The position numbers were made by a program, and so were the translations under genes. Of a stretch of 24,264 bases of DNA, positions 4,397-24,264 are shown piece by piece; the stretch's first letter is position 1, and every line of letters starts with the position of its first letter. The stretch is from the IMG/VR virus record IMGVR_UViG_3300009496_000072, positions 1 through 24,264 of that record. The stretch is one strand, 5' to 3'. The notes under the pieces were generated by a model, which saw only the letters and a program-made list of their open reading frames with translations, was not told the DNA's origin and did not search any database. Origin of the DNA: a virus.

Positions 4397-6670
4397 ATGA
4401 ATAACGTAACAGTATTATTTCCAGGAGGCTTCAAGCCAATAACCGGAGCACATATGGCTCTTGCTCAAAGATACGCTCAAAATCCTAGTGTTGACAAAGT
4501 TATCATGTTAATAGGTCCTAAAGAGCGAGACGGTATAACAAGAAATACAAGTATTAAAATGTTTAATTTGTTAAATAGAAACAATAATATTGAAATACAA
4601 TCAACAGATTTTAATTCGCCTATTATGGCTGCATATGAATATCTATTTTCATTACCAGAAAACGCTCAAGGTCAATTTGCATTAGCTGCATCAGAAAAAG
4701 ATGAAGATTATGTTCGAGTAAAAACATTTCTACCAAATGTAGATAAGTATAAATTAACTGGTGATAGAAAAGGAAGAAAAATCCCAGTTGGTATTGATGC
4801 AGTTGAATTAACAGTTTCTGTAGACCCTTTAAAATATGATGATGGTAATGCAATATCAGCATCTGCCGTAAGAGCAGCCTTAAATGCAGATGCATATAGT
4901 AAATTTAAAGAAAGTTATCCTGGATATGATGAATCTATTATAAAAAATATTTGGCAAATGCTTGGCGGAGCTCCAACATATGGAGATGTAATGGGATCTG
5001 AAATTAAAAAAAGCATTAAAGACATTGAAGATGGTGATGTAATATTATTAGACAATGGTAATAAGTTTAAGGTAGATTATATAGATCCATGGAGTGCCGG
5101 CGGTAGAATAATTAACGGTACAGATCTTGAAACAGGTAAAAAAGGAAAGTTAAAAATTAAGTTCTTAACACCAAGAGGGAATACAGGCCTCGCAGATGAT
5201 ACCATGTTAACAGTATTAAAAGAATCATTAACTATGAAAGAATGGTTCTTGCAAGAATTTGAAAATAATGCAAATGAAATAGCAGAACAAATGGGAGTTG
5301 GATATATGACTCCAAAGGGAGCTGTAGCACATCAAAAGAAAATTAAAAAACTTAGAAAATTTCTTGACAAGAAAAATGATCGTGGATTTACATATGATTT
5401 TGATGAATATCCGAAAACTGTATTTGGAACAAAATATTTAAATGAAGGTGGATTAGCTGGTCATATGTCACATCCATTTGATATGAATAGATCACAATCA
5501 TTAACATTTGCAGATTTCAAAGAAATGATCGCACGTGGATTACAAGGTAGATTAGATATTGAAAACACCGTTACTGAAAAAACAGATGGACAAAATATTT
5601 TTATGACTTTTAAAGACGGAGCAGTTAAATTTGCTAGAAATGGCGGAGAACGTGTAAATCCATTAACTGTTAAAGAATTACAAGCAAAGTTTGCAGGAAG
5701 AGGTAATATATCAGACGCATTTGGAGAAGCCGGAACAGATTTAGCAGCTGCTTTTGCAAAAGTAGGATTAGAAAAATTACAAAGTATTTTTCAAAATGGC
5801 AAGGTATTTGCTAATATGGAAATTATATATCCGCCAACAAAAAATGTTATATCATATGAAGCAGCATATTTGCAATTTCATAATCTTGTAGAATTTGATG
5901 AAAAAGGAAAAATTGTACAAACTGATTTAACCGGTGGTGCTGTTGTACAAAAAGCTGTAACAGACGCAAACTCAGATTTACAAAATACATTTAATTTAAT
6001 TCCACCTCAAAAAATTAAATTAGGCCAAATTGAAAATTTTCAAGACTATCAAGATGCATTATTCAATGAATTAAATCAACTACGTGACAAATATAATCTA
6101 AAAGACACAGATACAGTTTCAGAGTATCACAAATCATGGTGGAGAGATATTATACGAGCTAAAGCAAATGAGTTTAATTATAATATACCTAACGAAGTAA
6201 TAGATATATTAATGAATAGATGGGCATATAATATTAAATCACCTAACGTCTCTGCAGTAGCTAAAATGATAGACAATGCAGAGTTTGTAGAATGGATGAG
6301 AGGGTTTGATAAAAAAGACTTTAAAAAATATATAAAAGACAATATACAGCCATTTGAATCAATATTCTTAAAATTAGGTGCAGAAATAATGAAGAATGTA
6401 TCTAATTTTTTAGCACCGAATCCTGCAAAAGCTGTACAAGATATTAGAAAAGAAATTGCACAAATAATTCGCACATTGAGATCTACTAATGATATATCAA
6501 AAATGGAATTACTAAAAACTCAATTGGATAAAATTAAAAGATTAGGCGGATTCGAAAAAATAGTTCCGGTAGAAGGAATTGTATTTGTATATGGAGGTAA
6601 TACATATAAACTAACTGGAGCATTTGCTCCGCTAAACCAAATATTAGGAACATTAAAGTATTCTAGATAA
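4397..6670 (+). CDS. Two-domain protein: HIGH-type nucleotidylyltransferase fused to a ligase-like covalent nucleotidyltransferase
   Basis: A 757-residue protein. N-terminal domain (about 1-190): FPGGFKPITGAH with T16-x-x-H19 matches the (T/H)xGH loop of the cytidylyl/adenylyltransferase superfamily (as in PPAT and NMNAT), with Ala in place of the usual Gly. ISASAVRAAL (R159) matches the second superfamily motif, ISxTxxR. C-terminal region: EKTDGQN (K395, D397, G398) resembles the KxDG nucleotidylation motif I of DNA/RNA ligases. NMEIIYP (E475) resembles motif III, VEGIVF (E726) motif IV and YKLTG (K738) motif V. A block with GGLAGHMSHPF precedes motif I. About 250 residues separate motifs III and IV, longer than in small RNA ligases, so an insertion is likely. 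The substrate is unknown; nucleotide-cofactor chemistry or nucleic-acid end repair are both possible. It resembles large phage proteins I recall being catalogued as a domain of unknown function (possibly DUF6267). The start is fixed by the first beta strand directly after the ATG. Confidence 0.65.
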   Translation: MNNVTVLFPGGFKPITGAHMALAQRYAQNPSVDKVIMLIGPKERDGITRNTSIKMFNLLNRNNNIEIQSTDFNSPIMAAYEYLFSLPENAQGQFALAASEKDEDYVRVKTFLPNVDKYKLTGDRKGRKIPVGIDAVELTVSVDPLKYDDGNAISASAVRAALNADAYSKFKESYPGYDESIIKNIWQMLGGAPTYGDVMGSEIKKSIKDIEDGDVILLDNGNKFKVDYIDPWSAGGRIINGTDLETGKKGKLKIKFLTPRGNTGLADDTMLTVLKESLTMKEWFLQEFENNANEIAEQMGVGYMTPKGAVAHQKKIKKLRKFLDKKNDRGFTYDFDEYPKTVFGTKYLNEGGLAGHMSHPFDMNRSQSLTFADFKEMIARGLQGRLDIENTVTEKTDGQNIFMTFKDGAVKFARNGGERVNPLTVKELQAKFAGRGNISDAFGEAGTDLAAAFAKVGLEKLQSIFQNGKVFANMEIIYPPTKNVISYEAAYLQFHNLVEFDEKGKIVQTDLTGGAVVQKAVTDANSDLQNTFNLIPPQKIKLGQIENFQDYQDALFNELNQLRDKYNLKDTDTVSEYHKSWWRDIIRAKANEFNYNIPNEVIDILMNRWAYNIKSPNVSAVAKMIDNAEFVEWMRGFDKKDFKKYIKDNIQPFESIFLKLGAEIMKNVSNFLAPNPAKAVQDIRKEIAQIIRTLRSTNDISKMELLKTQLDKIKRLGGFEKIVPVEGIVFVYGGNTYKLTGAFAPLNQILGTLKYSR

Positions 6671-6705: not shown

Positions 6706-7572
6706 ATGGCAAAGTATAAACAACCAAAAAATGATAAGTATAAATCCAGAAAAGATTTAAAAGATTATACAATTGATAAAGATGTTGAAGGAATGGTACC
6801 AAATGCATCTGGAGAACCAATGCCTGAAGTTCCTAGAAAAGACGATAAAGAAGTTATTGACGATGTTGAAAACATGGTACCTAAAGTAAAAGATTCTGAT
6901 AAAATATATATTACTAAAGAATTGCAAGACGGTGATCCTAAAATGCCATCTAATGCATTAAAAACATTAGTTAAAAATCAAGAAGAAGATGCAAAAGAAT
7001 TAATTGATACATTATCAAAAAAGGATGGTGGCTATATGACACAAATAGAAAAATTAACAAAAGAACAAAAAGAAAAGCTAGTTAAAGAAATTGTAAAAAG
7101 AAAAGTTTCAAAATTTTTATCTGAGCAAGCTTTAAACACATTAAAAAATGAGCAAGATAAACAAACAGAGCCAGCAGACGAAGAACCAATAGAAGAACCC
7201 GTTGCTGATACTCCAGAACCTACTCCTGCTCCAGAAGCACCTGCAGAACCAGCTGATGCACCAGAAGCTCCAGTAGAACCAGAAGAAGCACCAGAACCAG
7301 AAGAGGCACCAGAACCAGAAGAGGAACCAATTCCAAATCCAGAAGGTGGAGAAGATGCCGAAAAACCTAATACAGGAGGAGATCCTAGAGTTTCTAAATT
7401 TATTGAAGCAATGGAACAAAAAGGCGGAACTTTAGCACAAGTTACATTAATGATGAAAACTATGAATCAATTTTTAGGCGAAAAAGAACCAAAAAATAAA
7501 ATACAATTTTTAGCATTCATGAAAAAATTAGTTGATAAATCTTTACAAAAGATGGATCCTAAAGATTTATAA
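6706..7572 (+). CDS. Acidic Pro/Glu-rich protein of unknown function, possible prohead-core component
   Basis: I do not recognise this 288-residue protein. The N-terminus is Lys-rich (about 1-25) and carries a duplicated short motif, DVEGMVP at 26-32 and DVENMVP at 53-59. Residues 85-150 look helical. Residues about 152-212 are a low-complexity Pro/Glu/Ala linker with EAPEPE repeats. The last 60 residues (PRVSKFIEAMEQKGG to DPKDL) look like a compact helical domain. There is no membrane segment or signal peptide. The composition of the linker resembles the acidic part of the gp22-like scaffold at 15738, which makes a scaffold or core role conceivable, but this is inference from composition only. 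A start at 6706 fits; an ACAGGA lies about 13 bases upstream, which is distant for a ribosome binding site. Confidence 0.55.
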   Translation: MAKYKQPKNDKYKSRKDLKDYTIDKDVEGMVPNASGEPMPEVPRKDDKEVIDDVENMVPKVKDSDKIYITKELQDGDPKMPSNALKTLVKNQEEDAKELIDTLSKKDGGYMTQIEKLTKEQKEKLVKEIVKRKVSKFLSEQALNTLKNEQDKQTEPADEEPIEEPVADTPEPTPAPEAPAEPADAPEAPVEPEEAPEPEEAPEPEEEPIPNPEGGEDAEKPNTGGDPRVSKFIEAMEQKGGTLAQVTLMMKTMNQFLGEKEPKNKIQFLAFMKKLVDKSLQKMDPKDL

Positions 7573-13924: not shown

Positions 13925-14548
13925 ATGAGTAAGAATTTATTATTAGAATATATACCATTTAAGCCTATCGGCCCTGTTAATGAGCAAATGGCTTCACAAT
14001 TTGGAGTTCCTGGCGGATTAGTAGTACAAGGGGTATTACAACGAGCAGGAGCTAAGAATCAAAACGGAAGAGTATATCCTAAACATATATTAGATAGAGA
14101 AGCTAAAAAATATCAAAAAGAATATATTGATCAAAATAGAGCATTAGGGGAATTAGATCATCCTGAATCTTCTGTTGTTAATTTAAATAACGTTTCTCAT
14201 AACATTTTAAAAATGTGGTGGGATAAAGATGATTTAATGGGAGCCGTACAAATATTAGAAACACCAGCTGGAAAAATATTAAAATCATTATTCGATGCTG
14301 GTATTACATTAGGAATATCTAGTAGAGGATTAGGCTCAGTAAAAGAATTATATAAAGAATCTGCAGTAGAAGTGCAGGAAGATTTTGAATTAATTTGTTT
14401 TGATTTTGTTTCAAATCCTTCAACCCATGGAGCATTTTTAAGACCAATGAATGAATCAGTAAACAAATCAACAAAAGATTATAAAAAAGTAAATGATATT
14501 ATTACATCAATATTATGTGATAGTGGAAAATGTAGGATTTTACCATGA
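13925..14548 (+). CDS. 21: Prohead maturation protease (T4 gp21-like)
   Basis: This 207-residue serine protease trims capsid and core proteins inside the prohead. The family fold (herpesvirus-assemblin-like, peptidase S80 type) is marked by ALGELDHPESS (His79), ISSRGLGSV (Ser133, preceded by a hydrophobic helix with GITLGI) and LICFDFVSNPS (D160 in the strand before the conserved VSNPS). The sequence FGVPGGLVVQGVLQRAGAKNQNGRVYP (residues 26-52, here read across a few variable positions) is the usual N-terminal strand region. A good ribosome binding site, AGGAG, lies 6 to 10 bases before the ATG, inside the end of the upstream gene. The length matches T4 gp21 (212 residues). The next gene starts by a 4-base ATGA overlap. 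Confidence 0.93.
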   Translation: MSKNLLLEYIPFKPIGPVNEQMASQFGVPGGLVVQGVLQRAGAKNQNGRVYPKHILDREAKKYQKEYIDQNRALGELDHPESSVVNLNNVSHNILKMWWDKDDLMGAVQILETPAGKILKSLFDAGITLGISSRGLGSVKELYKESAVEVQEDFELICFDFVSNPSTHGAFLRPMNESVNKSTKDYKKVNDIITSILCDSGKCRILP

Positions 14549-22135: not shown

Positions 22136-24264
22136 ATGTCTCAAATTATTCAGCATCGTAGAGGTAGTTTAGGTAATATCAAATCACTAAATACCAACGG
22201 CCCAATACATAGAGGTGAAATATTAGTAGCCACCGGATCTTTATATATATCTTCCGGATCATCTGACTCAGATAATTATCATTTATCCGCATCAATTTTC
22301 TTTGGAGGATCATTAACTCCTTCCGGAAATGAATACAAAGCATTAACACAAGTTATAAGTGGTTCTGGATTACCTTCTGTAACAACTGGAACATATGGAA
22401 GATCATTGGATGGTATTTTATATATTAATACCGACGATAATAAATTATATAGATTAGTAGCTGAAGTAGATGCAAATCCTGCAACATCTGGAAACTTTAC
22501 TGGATCTCATCAATTAATATCCGGAGGAGGCGGAGGCGGAGGATCTTCTGATTATCCTTCTATAGGAACACCAGATGATGGAACATATACTGATGGTGTA
22601 TTTCCATTCACTTCTACCACGACAATTGCAAATGCTATAGATCAAATAAATGAAGTATTAAAAGTAATTGCTCCATCTTCACCACCAAATTATCAAGGAT
22701 TAAGTTTTGCTGCTAGTGGAACTATCACCGGAAAATTATCTTTTGGTGATAATCATGCTATATCTGGTTACACAAATGTTGGAGACAATATTGGTCAAAC
22801 ATATGGTGGCTCTGATTATGCTAGTATTCAAACAGTTGTATTCGCAACGTCATCAGATGTACCATCTGTTGTTGCATCCGATAACACCGGTGGTTTTAAA
22901 GGAATATATGGAGATCCTAGTTCAACTACAGGAACTGTTAATGATATTGCAACAAGATTAGGTAAAGGTAATCCTGCAGTAAGTGCTGGATCAAATGGAT
23001 CATATGTTCAATATGCAGTAGGTGATGGAAAAATTGGTGTTATGGCATTATATTTAAATGGAGCAAGATTTTTAACAGCTTCACTTTCTGGATCTGATGC
23101 AGCAGGTGTAGCTCAAATACAAGATACAACTAGTAATGGTTCTAATTTAACATTATCAGCAACACAAAGTGTATTTTTTAGTGACGGAATAGCAAAACTA
23201 GAAGGAGCTGAATATAGAACATTTACATATTCAATTGCCACTGCAGATATGAGAAATGGTCATAACTATCTAACTGTTAGACATGAATTAGCAGGAAGTA
23301 CAAGAACAGCTACTAAACATGATTGGATTCATGACAATTTTTCAGGAACTATGGCTGCAACAGATAATGCAACTCATCCAATAACATCTTCATTGAGTGC
23401 AGCTCAAGGATTTGACACATCCAAAGTTCATTCTGTATCTGGAATTAAATTTTATACTCCAGGATTTGGAGCTAGTCTAGTTCAAGCATATACATCATCA
23501 TTTACTGGAATATATCAAAATGTATATCCATCAGCAACATCGGCTATTACAATGGGATCAAACAACATGACCATTGATTCTAGTACTAAAAAGATTGAAG
23601 GAAGTAAAATATCAACATTAACTGGAGCTTCTGCAAATAAATTTCCAGATTTAGATATAGCAAATCATCCAACTACCACAGAAGATAGTAACATGACAAT
23701 GTCATTTGCAGCAACTGTCGATATTACAGACACAGGCGTATTTCATGCACCAGGAAGTGGTACTACAAATGCTGCATGTTCATTTGGATTTAGTTCCGCA
23801 GTAACTCCATTGATGAGATCTGGTTTAAGTGCTCCATCGATTACAAATGAAAATAGATATTATTATAACTCAATTACATCTGGATCAACTAGCGAAGCTT
23901 ATATTGAAACATTTAGAGGAGAAATTTATAGACAAGCATATTCTGCTAATAGTATAGGATCAACATCTAATACATGGAATGGAACTACAGATTTATCTAA
24001 TAGCACAGCAGGAGCGGTCCAAGCAGTACAATTTCAAACTAAACTAATAGATATAAAATCAGCTGGTAATAGTGGTGTTTTCACAACATTCCACGGTCCT
24101 TCTGGTCAACCAACATATTCTGCAGGTAATGTAGCTTCTGGAGACAGATCATATGTTAGATATTTTAAAGCTCCATTTGCATCTGGATATAAAGAATTTG
24201 CTATAGAATTTGTAGGCTCCGGAAAAATTGTTCCTGACGGATCATCATTATTTCAAGCCGATGA
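22136..24264 (+). CDS. Long fibre-like virion protein, 3' truncated by the window
   Basis: The frame is open from ATG 22136 to the window end, giving 709 complete codons with no stop. AAAGGATTTT lies about 10 bases upstream. It begins MSQIIQHRRGSLGNIKSLN, the IxxRRG-type opening common in phage fibre and neck-appendage proteins, then GEILVATGSLYISSGSS. Residues about 132-138 are a run of seven Gly (ISGGGGGGGSS), a likely flexible hinge. A helical DQINEVLKVIAP segment follows near 175. The remainder is Ser/Thr/Gly/Ala-rich, beta-type sequence without Cys clusters, membrane segments or a signal peptide. Where it sits on the particle is unknown. It follows the neck and tail-terminator genes, so a neck-whisker-like fibre is as plausible as a tail fibre. 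I saw no reverse transcriptase nearby that would suggest targeted variation. Confidence 0.65.
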   Translation, partial: MSQIIQHRRGSLGNIKSLNTNGPIHRGEILVATGSLYISSGSSDSDNYHLSASIFFGGSLTPSGNEYKALTQVISGSGLPSVTTGTYGRSLDGILYINTDDNKLYRLVAEVDANPATSGNFTGSHQLISGGGGGGGSSDYPSIGTPDDGTYTDGVFPFTSTTTIANAIDQINEVLKVIAPSSPPNYQGLSFAASGTITGKLSFGDNHAISGYTNVGDNIGQTYGGSDYASIQTVVFATSSDVPSVVASDNTGGFKGIYGDPSSTTGTVNDIATRLGKGNPAVSAGSNGSYVQYAVGDGKIGVMALYLNGARFLTASLSGSDAAGVAQIQDTTSNGSNLTLSATQSVFFSDGIAKLEGAEYRTFTYSIATADMRNGHNYLTVRHELAGSTRTATKHDWIHDNFSGTMAATDNATHPITSSLSAAQGFDTSKVHSVSGIKFYTPGFGASLVQAYTSSFTGIYQNVYPSATSAITMGSNNMTIDSSTKKIEGSKISTLTGASANKFPDLDIANHPTTTEDSNMTMSFAATVDITDTGVFHAPGSGTTNAACSFGFSSAVTPLMRSGLSAPSITNENRYYYNSITSGSTSEAYIETFRGEIYRQAYSANSIGSTSNTWNGTTDLSNSTAGAVQAVQFQTKLIDIKSAGNSGVFTTFHGPSGQPTYSAGNVASGDRSYVRYFKAPFASGYKEFAIEFVGSGKIVPDGSSLFQAD

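Follow-up and report, generated by a model that had tools for sequence, protein, structure and literature searches.

The internal head proteins of T4, IPI-III and Alt, carry a capsid-targeting peptide, are processed by gp21 and are ejected. T4 injects a few head proteins, and phages are known that carry RNA ligases made after infection; T4 RNA ligase 1 (gp63) doubles as the catalyst of tail-fibre attachment. Nucleotidyltransferases of the HIGH superfamily are recognised by two textbook signatures, an (H/T)-x-G-H loop and ISxTxxR. The gp21 protease cleaves after L/I-x-E (PMC9026906), and polyvalent proteins have been described as multi-domain proteins encoded near virion genes and predicted to be injected, some of them with ParB/Srx domains (Iyer et al. 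2017, PMC5512222). The latter paper brings in RNA ligase merely to draw a contrast and does not count it among polyvalent domains, and no description of a virion-packaged RNA ligase was found in our literature search.

The protein analysed here resembles each of these systems in part. With IPI-III and Alt it shares an L/I-x-E site, a gene in the late head operon and, in its stand-alone relatives, similar N-terminal peptides, but its cargo would be a ligase and a nucleotidyltransferase. As in polyvalent proteins, several unrelated enzymatic domains are found per chain near virion genes, whereas the modules appear to be punctuated by gp21 sites and the metallopeptidase/ArdC hub was not seen. The NadM/NadR NMNAT fusions of phages also combine a HIGH nucleotidyltransferase with a second enzyme domain; the partner there is a Nudix domain or nicotinamide riboside kinase, and here it is a ligase fold.

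Genomic context of the fused gene

The window, that is, the whole stretch of 24,264 nucleotides analysed, is a 24-kb virus fragment (IMG/VR record IMGVR_UViG_3300009496_000072). The open reading frame at 4397-6670 (+) is intact in the window translation and codes for 757 aa. Fibre-like genes lie upstream of it, and on the same strand the 3' side holds terL (phrog_2, E 1.7e-45) and portal (phrog_213, E 1.4e-63), followed further on by prohead protease (phrog_207, E 1.3e-56), a scaffold-like gene and the major head protein (phrog_138, E 1.2e-70). Judged by these matches, the window genes form a T4-like head operon and the phage is of T4-like type, in agreement with the late expression that an earlier note on this DNA had proposed from the position of the gene. 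Among relatives, terL was downstream on the same strand in all 133 loci in which it was found. Directly 3' of the gene, at 6706-7572, an acidic Pro/Glu/Ala-rich repetitive protein is encoded, which matched no family and has a counterpart in 71 compared loci. The presumed processing enzyme of the same phage is located as follows:

13925..14548, + strand: gp21-type prohead protease (phrog_207 head maturation protease, E 1.3e-56)

Searched by sequence against Pfam, PHROG and the PDB, the 757-aa query matched nothing real, and its matches to a thiaminase and a cyclo-oxygenase were rejected as chance. Homologues were gathered from viral contigs and phage records.

Two nucleotidyl-transfer domains in one protein

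The full-length AF2 model (pLDDT 77.8) contains two confident domains and a poorly predicted linker. The features of the N-terminal domain are:

4397..4966, + strand: HIGH-superfamily nucleotidyltransferase domain, aa 1-190 (AF2 pLDDT ~90; NadM/NadD/PPAT folds)
4442..4453, + strand: T16-G-A-H19 loop (H19 invariant, 23/23)
4853..4873, + strand: ISASAVR, the C-terminal HIGH-superfamily motif, ending at R159 (S154 and R159 each 23/24)

In the PDB fold search, the N-terminal part retrieved a mixture of NadM, NadD and PPAT at the top (E 2.5e-5 to 1e-3), and homologues of the same architecture match PF01467 (CTP_transf_like). T16 and H19 are located in FPGGFKPITGAH; the loop here is TGAH, in which A replaces G, and it is conserved among homologues. 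The predicted Rossmann-like fold and both signatures thus place aa 1-190 in the HIGH (NMNAT/PPAT) superfamily. Two Prevotella Lak phages (L046, L047) encode a HIGH domain of the same PGGFKP subtype as a separate protein of 207 aa, with the ligase gene absent within 5 kb.

The features of the C-terminal domain are:

5447..6667, + strand: RNA-ligase-like adenylation domain, aa 351-757 (AF2 pLDDT 93.6, pTM 0.89; PDB matches are ligases)
5576..5590, + strand: motif I, EKTDG, with K395 as predicted AMP acceptor (invariant; aligns with T4 Rnl1 TKEDG and Rnl2 EKIHG)
5813..5827, + strand: motif III, NMEII (E475; invariant in alignment A3, aligned with T4 Rnl1 ANFEFVAPTNRIVLAY)
5933..6556, + strand: all-helical insert, ~200 aa long, separating motif IIIa from motif IV (model secondary structure, domain helices 163-365)
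6569..6586, + strand: motif IV, VEGIVF (E726; invariant)
6605..6613, + strand: motif V, YKL (K738 invariant; the second Lys position of K-x-K is T740)

None of the sequence models in Pfam, PHROG or the PDB recognised the ligase domain, and PDB profile searches with alignments A1, A3, A4 and A5 gave chance matches only. In the fold search with the full-length model, T4 RNA ligase 1 appeared at rank 45. When the domain was modelled alone with 62 homologues (the model listed above), ranks 1-34 of the Foldseek search against the PDB were all ligases, with T4 Rnl1 first (E 1.5e-3, prob 0.91) and archaeal Rnl3, fungal Trl1 and T4 Rnl2 among the other leading matches (prob up to 0.92). The TM-scores to these folds are ~0.2, so the kinship to known RNA ligases is distant. 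Profile comparisons were likewise weak: hhalign to single T4 ligases reached a prob of ~3, Pfam RNA_ligase an E of 0.02 and PHROG 562 an E of 0.034. The weak alignment to T4 Rnl1 nevertheless places motif I (TKEDG) and motif III (ANFEFVAPTNRIVLAY against ANMEIIYPPTKNVISY) opposite their counterparts, and T4 Rnl2 is also aligned at motif I.

Conservation follows the catalytic motifs. In 23-25 homologues, three of them at 33-37% identity, little or no variation was seen at H19, R159, K395, D397, G398, E475, E726, G727, K738 and G741, which speaks against chance occurrence of the motifs. In the 62-sequence alignment of the C-terminal domain (A3), E394, K395, D397, G398, R414, E475, E726, G727 and K738 are invariant (E44, K45, D47, G48, R64, E125, E376, G377 and K388 in domain numbering), and all 149 near-complete domains retain the Lys of motifs I and V and the Glu of motif IV. 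A second ligase subfamily (A4; KIDGVNAS, EGIVVRD, KITG; 330-360 aa) is clearly homologous (hhalign 98.8%, E 4.6e-17).

With a motif I of the K-x-(D/H)-G type (K395-T-D-G), the Glu residues of motifs III and IV and a predicted adenylation fold, the domain can be assigned to the covalent nucleotidyltransferase (RNA ligase) superfamily. It shares with T4 Rnl1, Rnl2, Rnl3 and Trl1 the fold detected by Foldseek and the order of motifs I, III, IV and V, and with T4 Rnl1 the ANxE..PT..V..Y surroundings of motif III. It differs from T4 Rnl1 and its kin in the helical insert, in K-x-T for K-x-K (Thr at the second position in the query and its relatives) and in the candidate head-protease site N-terminal to it. 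The protein ends 19 residues past K738 and has no Rnl1-type C-terminal domain after motif V, the feature that marks the T4 Rnl1 (gp63) subfamily. Ligase activity of aa 351-757 is predicted from the model, and RNA is the likely substrate, to judge from the ligases nearest in fold and from the accompanying modules described below.

These results bear out one part of the earlier note, its reading from sequence of a HIGH-type nucleotidylyltransferase fused to a ligase-like domain. TGAH (T16/H19), ISASAVR (R159), K395, E475, E726 and K738 all lie at the residues it gave, the fold it expected was predicted at aa 351-757, and the four ligase residues held in the 62-sequence alignment. By the AF2 models and the PDB fold searches, the HIGH and ligase fusion is real.

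A candidate prohead-protease site between the domains

The features of the region between the two domains are:

4967..5446, + strand: variable linker, aa 191-350, where extra modules are inserted in relatives (low pLDDT; comparison of lengths and inserts)
5216..5224, + strand: candidate prohead-protease site LKE276/S277 (strict [LI]xE[GAS] match in the linker)
5438..5446, + strand: main candidate prohead-protease site LNE350/G351, cut between 5446 and 5447 (family pattern L/I-x-E before GG)

The linker has a pLDDT <50 at 255-305 and 337-356 in the AF2 model, and its length among relatives ranges from 70 to >400 aa. The whole 757-aa protein contains exactly two strict [LI]xE[GAS] matches, at E276 and E350, both in the linker. 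The residues before the ligase domain were compared in 179 distinct homologues, found with a search pattern that demanded GG and GHM and left the preceding residues free (first count n=170). P3 was L or I in 177 of the 179, P1 was E in 166 and P1' was G in all, while P2 was free (13 residue types, entropy 2.78 bits over the 179 sequences). A candidate gp21 site of the kind typical of T4-type internal head proteins, L/I-x-E, is therefore present at LNE350 before GG and in nearly all of the family.

The exceptions at P1 are of two kinds. In ten of the 179 sequences P1 is M, and a Shine-Dalgarno-like sequence stands nine bases before this ATG in all ten (AAGGAG in eight), so that an internal start is apparent there. 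Such a sequence was found upstream in 14 of the 166 homologues with E at P1, and none of the 16 of these with a K-E codon pair nearby used AAGGAG. The GG would thus apparently become the N-terminus of the ligase either by cleavage or by internal initiation. Three homologues (L122, L224 and L165) have C at P1. In the first two of these an HNH-like element lies just upstream of the site, and L122 retains an intact LLTEGG on the upstream side of the insert, a picture resembling the insertion of a homing element into the protease site.

Matches to [LI]xE[GAS] are also concentrated in the linkers as a class, with 0.43 per 100 aa, whereas ligase domains have 0.11 and HIGH domains 0.05; in linkers 65 were observed compared with 28 by shuffling. 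These counts, like those at the site itself, ignore kinship among the sequences. Elsewhere in the window the matches cluster in the scaffold, capsid and small core-like proteins. It looks as if a candidate head-protease cut site sits exactly between the two enzyme domains, and the two enzymes would therefore probably act as separate polypeptides after maturation, not as the single one of the earlier note. The candidate prohead-protease site between the domains, which was absent from the earlier note, is the main new result of the analysis.

Candidate targeting peptides and stand-alone ligases

Stand-alone ligase genes encode a short N-terminal peptide, for example MKTKILNFNQFITE or MIKLNNILNE, before the L/I-x-E/GG site in 20 of 20 cases. 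Starts of this kind were found in only 40 of 654 control ORFs, by a pattern that was defined post hoc from the examples. The peptides resemble MKTYQEFIAE/A, which was read from two T4 genes matching known internal proteins, and the N-termini of the cyanophage HIGH proteins are MKKFSAFLNE/A (S-SM1) and MKSFLQFLKE/A (S-SCSM1). The ligase forms with an internal start (P1 = M) would be without a targeting peptide.

No N-terminal capsid-targeting peptide is present in the 757-aa protein, the chain of which opens directly with the HIGH domain, so targeting would need an internal element or an interaction. One candidate for such an element is:

5234..5287, + strand: MKEWFLQEFENNANEIAE at aa 280-297, an internal segment that may serve in capsid targeting (KEWW-type segment in relatives)

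Related KEWW-type segments occur in 38 of 180 relatives. Since stand-alone ligases were found without a HIGH gene nearby, coupling of HIGH and ligase is not obligatory.

Modules in the linkers of relatives

In relatives the linker carries further modules. Those found include a PNK-type HAD phosphatase (L025; phrog_415, E 2e-8), a CCA-adding tRNA nucleotidyltransferase (L129, E 1.5e-29; L204, E 3.6e-30; also L165), to which L204 adds an HD domain, a P-loop kinase of zeta/AAA_33 type (L187), a ParB-like domain (L044, L165), a weakly matched protein-kinase-like domain (L034) and HNH-like elements (L122, L224). In L071, a module that is SGNH-hydrolase-like by its GDSI motif is inserted between HIGH and ligase. 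The domain order is reversed in L128, L177 and S-PM2. A HIGH domain was scored in 73 of 106 complete proteins by a simple pattern that undercounts. Across the sequences compared, the ligase is the constant part of these multi-domain proteins. The protein at 829-6558 of L129, with 1909 aa, combines ParB/Srx-like, CCA-adding, HIGH and ligase parts, and its middle part is possibly ART-like by eye.

The earlier note had also suggested packaging-linked DNA end repair. This was rejected, since the closest structural matches are to RNA ligases and the modules that accompany the domain (CCA-adding, PNK-like, P-loop kinase) act on RNA ends. An NMNAT feeding a LigA-like NAD-dependent ligase was likewise discarded: the protein showed no NMN-binding domain of the Ia type, and ligase genes that stand alone have no HIGH gene in their vicinity.

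Cyanophage relatives and DUF6267

Published virion data concern cyanophage relatives of the HIGH part. The T4-GC190 cytidylyltransferase was present in purified S-SM1 virions and grouped with virion structural proteins (PMC3037559), and cytidylyltransferase/NMNAT-like proteins were found by mass spectrometry in virions of S-SZBM1 (PMC9146016), S-SCSM1 and S-CBWM1 (PMC9602691) and S-CREM2 (PMC10665884). Together with the protease-site pattern and the targeting-peptide-like starts, these data strengthen what had been a guess of virion delivery, and packaging of the family in virions is well supported.

The T4-GC190 gene of S-SM1 overlaps that of T4-GC71, a cluster that corresponds to DUF6267 (PF19782), and in S-PM2 a single protein consists of DUF6267 (E 1.6e-111) and CTP_transf_like. 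Of the S-PM2 records AJ630128 and LN828717, one has a broken fusion frame and the other an intact one, which may reflect a sequencing difference. DUF6267, which occurs in 470 phage records and which no paper retrieved by our literature search names, has the motifs KxDGxP, EGFV and KLVDR. In a BFVD fold search the window ligase domain matched the S-PM2 fusion (E 3.5e-5), and DUF6267 apparently has the same fold. The two share the arrangement KxDGxP..EGFV..K, an HxxHPxD before motif I, and adjacency or fusion to HIGH; they differ in that the domain order is reversed or the genes separate, and the Pfam DUF6267 model did not match the 757-aa query. The hhalign comparison was weak (prob 21, E 0.001), and profile searches with A3 and A4 did not retrieve cyanophage DUF6267 by sequence. 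The link is therefore drawn from the fold, from the order of the motifs and from the adjacency of the genes, and because the sequence-profile link is weak, uniting the two families remains a proposal.

Proposed role and alternative explanations

As the simplest account, we consider it moderately likely that the protein is a capsid-packaged, protease-processed precursor that delivers an RNA ligase and an NMNAT-like enzyme, both ejected with the DNA. A precursor of internal head proteins would be made late, alongside terminase, portal, prohead protease and capsid, and would enter the prohead core. There the gp21-type protease would cut after E350, and probably also after E276, to yield an NMNAT- or PPAT-like HIGH nucleotidyltransferase and a free ligase domain starting GGLAGHM. 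Both would stay in the capsid and leave with the DNA on ejection. The ligase would then react with ATP to adenylate its own K395 and rejoin broken RNA, most likely tRNAs cut by host anticodon nucleases, while NAD or a similar dinucleotide made by the HIGH enzyme would offset NAD depletion. Cleavage, packaging and ejection in this phage, as well as the substrates and the biological purpose, are what we infer. The purpose is probably to reverse, at an early stage of infection, the cleavage of tRNAs and the loss of NAD, by analogy with known phage-host conflicts over anticodon-nuclease damage and NAD loss (PMC9503650, PMC7824862).

A wider proposal, to which we give slightly less than an even chance, is that a widespread family of virion-packaged RNA ligases includes the cyanophage core protein DUF6267, and that its protease-punctuated precursors, with swappable NMNAT-like, CCA-adding, PNK-like and kinase modules, form an RNA-repair and NAD-restoring kit active before phage gene expression. 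If true, a head-packed ligase could begin to repair tRNAs within the first minute, ahead of the translation stop imposed by host nucleases. A testable function would be offered for DUF6267 and for the cyanophage 'cytidylyltransferase', which has repeatedly been seen in virions and is so far unexplained, and modules beside head-protease sites would provide a general key for reading such precursor proteins.

The domains could also work as a late bifunctional enzyme that is not packaged, in which the dinucleotide made by HIGH is the adenylyl donor of the ligase, or a cytoplasmic macromolecule of host or phage is modified, the L/I-x-E/GG pattern being structural. That the fusion recurs, with either of two HIGH subtypes and also with the domains in reverse order (L128, L177, S-PM2), does suggest functional coupling, and the invariant GG and H residues past the site may be catalytic. 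A structural role fits poorly with a fixed P3 and P1 beside a free P2 and with the internal start that appears where M replaces E at P1; stand-alone ligases without a nearby HIGH gene and the presence of cyanophage relatives in virions also count against this enzyme, which we regard as unlikely. A role in virion assembly like that of T4 gp63, with cleavage merely freeing the domain from the head core, would agree with T4 Rnl1/gp63 as the nearest fold, with the fibre-like genes directly upstream and with the weak PHROG 562 match. The protease site and the core-targeting-like peptides, however, indicate the head interior rather than the tail, chaperoning would not require conserved catalytic residues, and RNA-repair modules are joined to the ligase in relatives; we hold such a role to be quite unlikely.

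That the domain is a degenerate, inactive ligase fold serving as a core or structural protein seems very improbable. Motif V without its second Lys and the classing of cyanophage HIGH proteins among virion structural proteins (PMC3037559) would be in line with it, but the superfamily's catalytic K, E, E and K, together with R414, are invariant over very diverse homologues.

Distribution of the ligase family

The ligase domain is encoded in at least 587 viral contigs, whereas a search of the genome collection gave six matches only, all on short MAG contigs resembling phage DNA. It is thus essentially a phage family, and a cellular origin was rejected on the same grounds. Among T4-like phages of marine and fresh waters the family is very common, although neither Pfam nor PHROG has a model for it. 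The contigs with this family that are assigned to archaeal or bacterial MAGs (L127-L132) are probably misbinned virus DNA. In the Microcystis phage Mel-JY01 (L043), a gene annotated as ribosomal protein S21 (RpsU) lies at 22183-22410, between the prohead protease and capsid genes.
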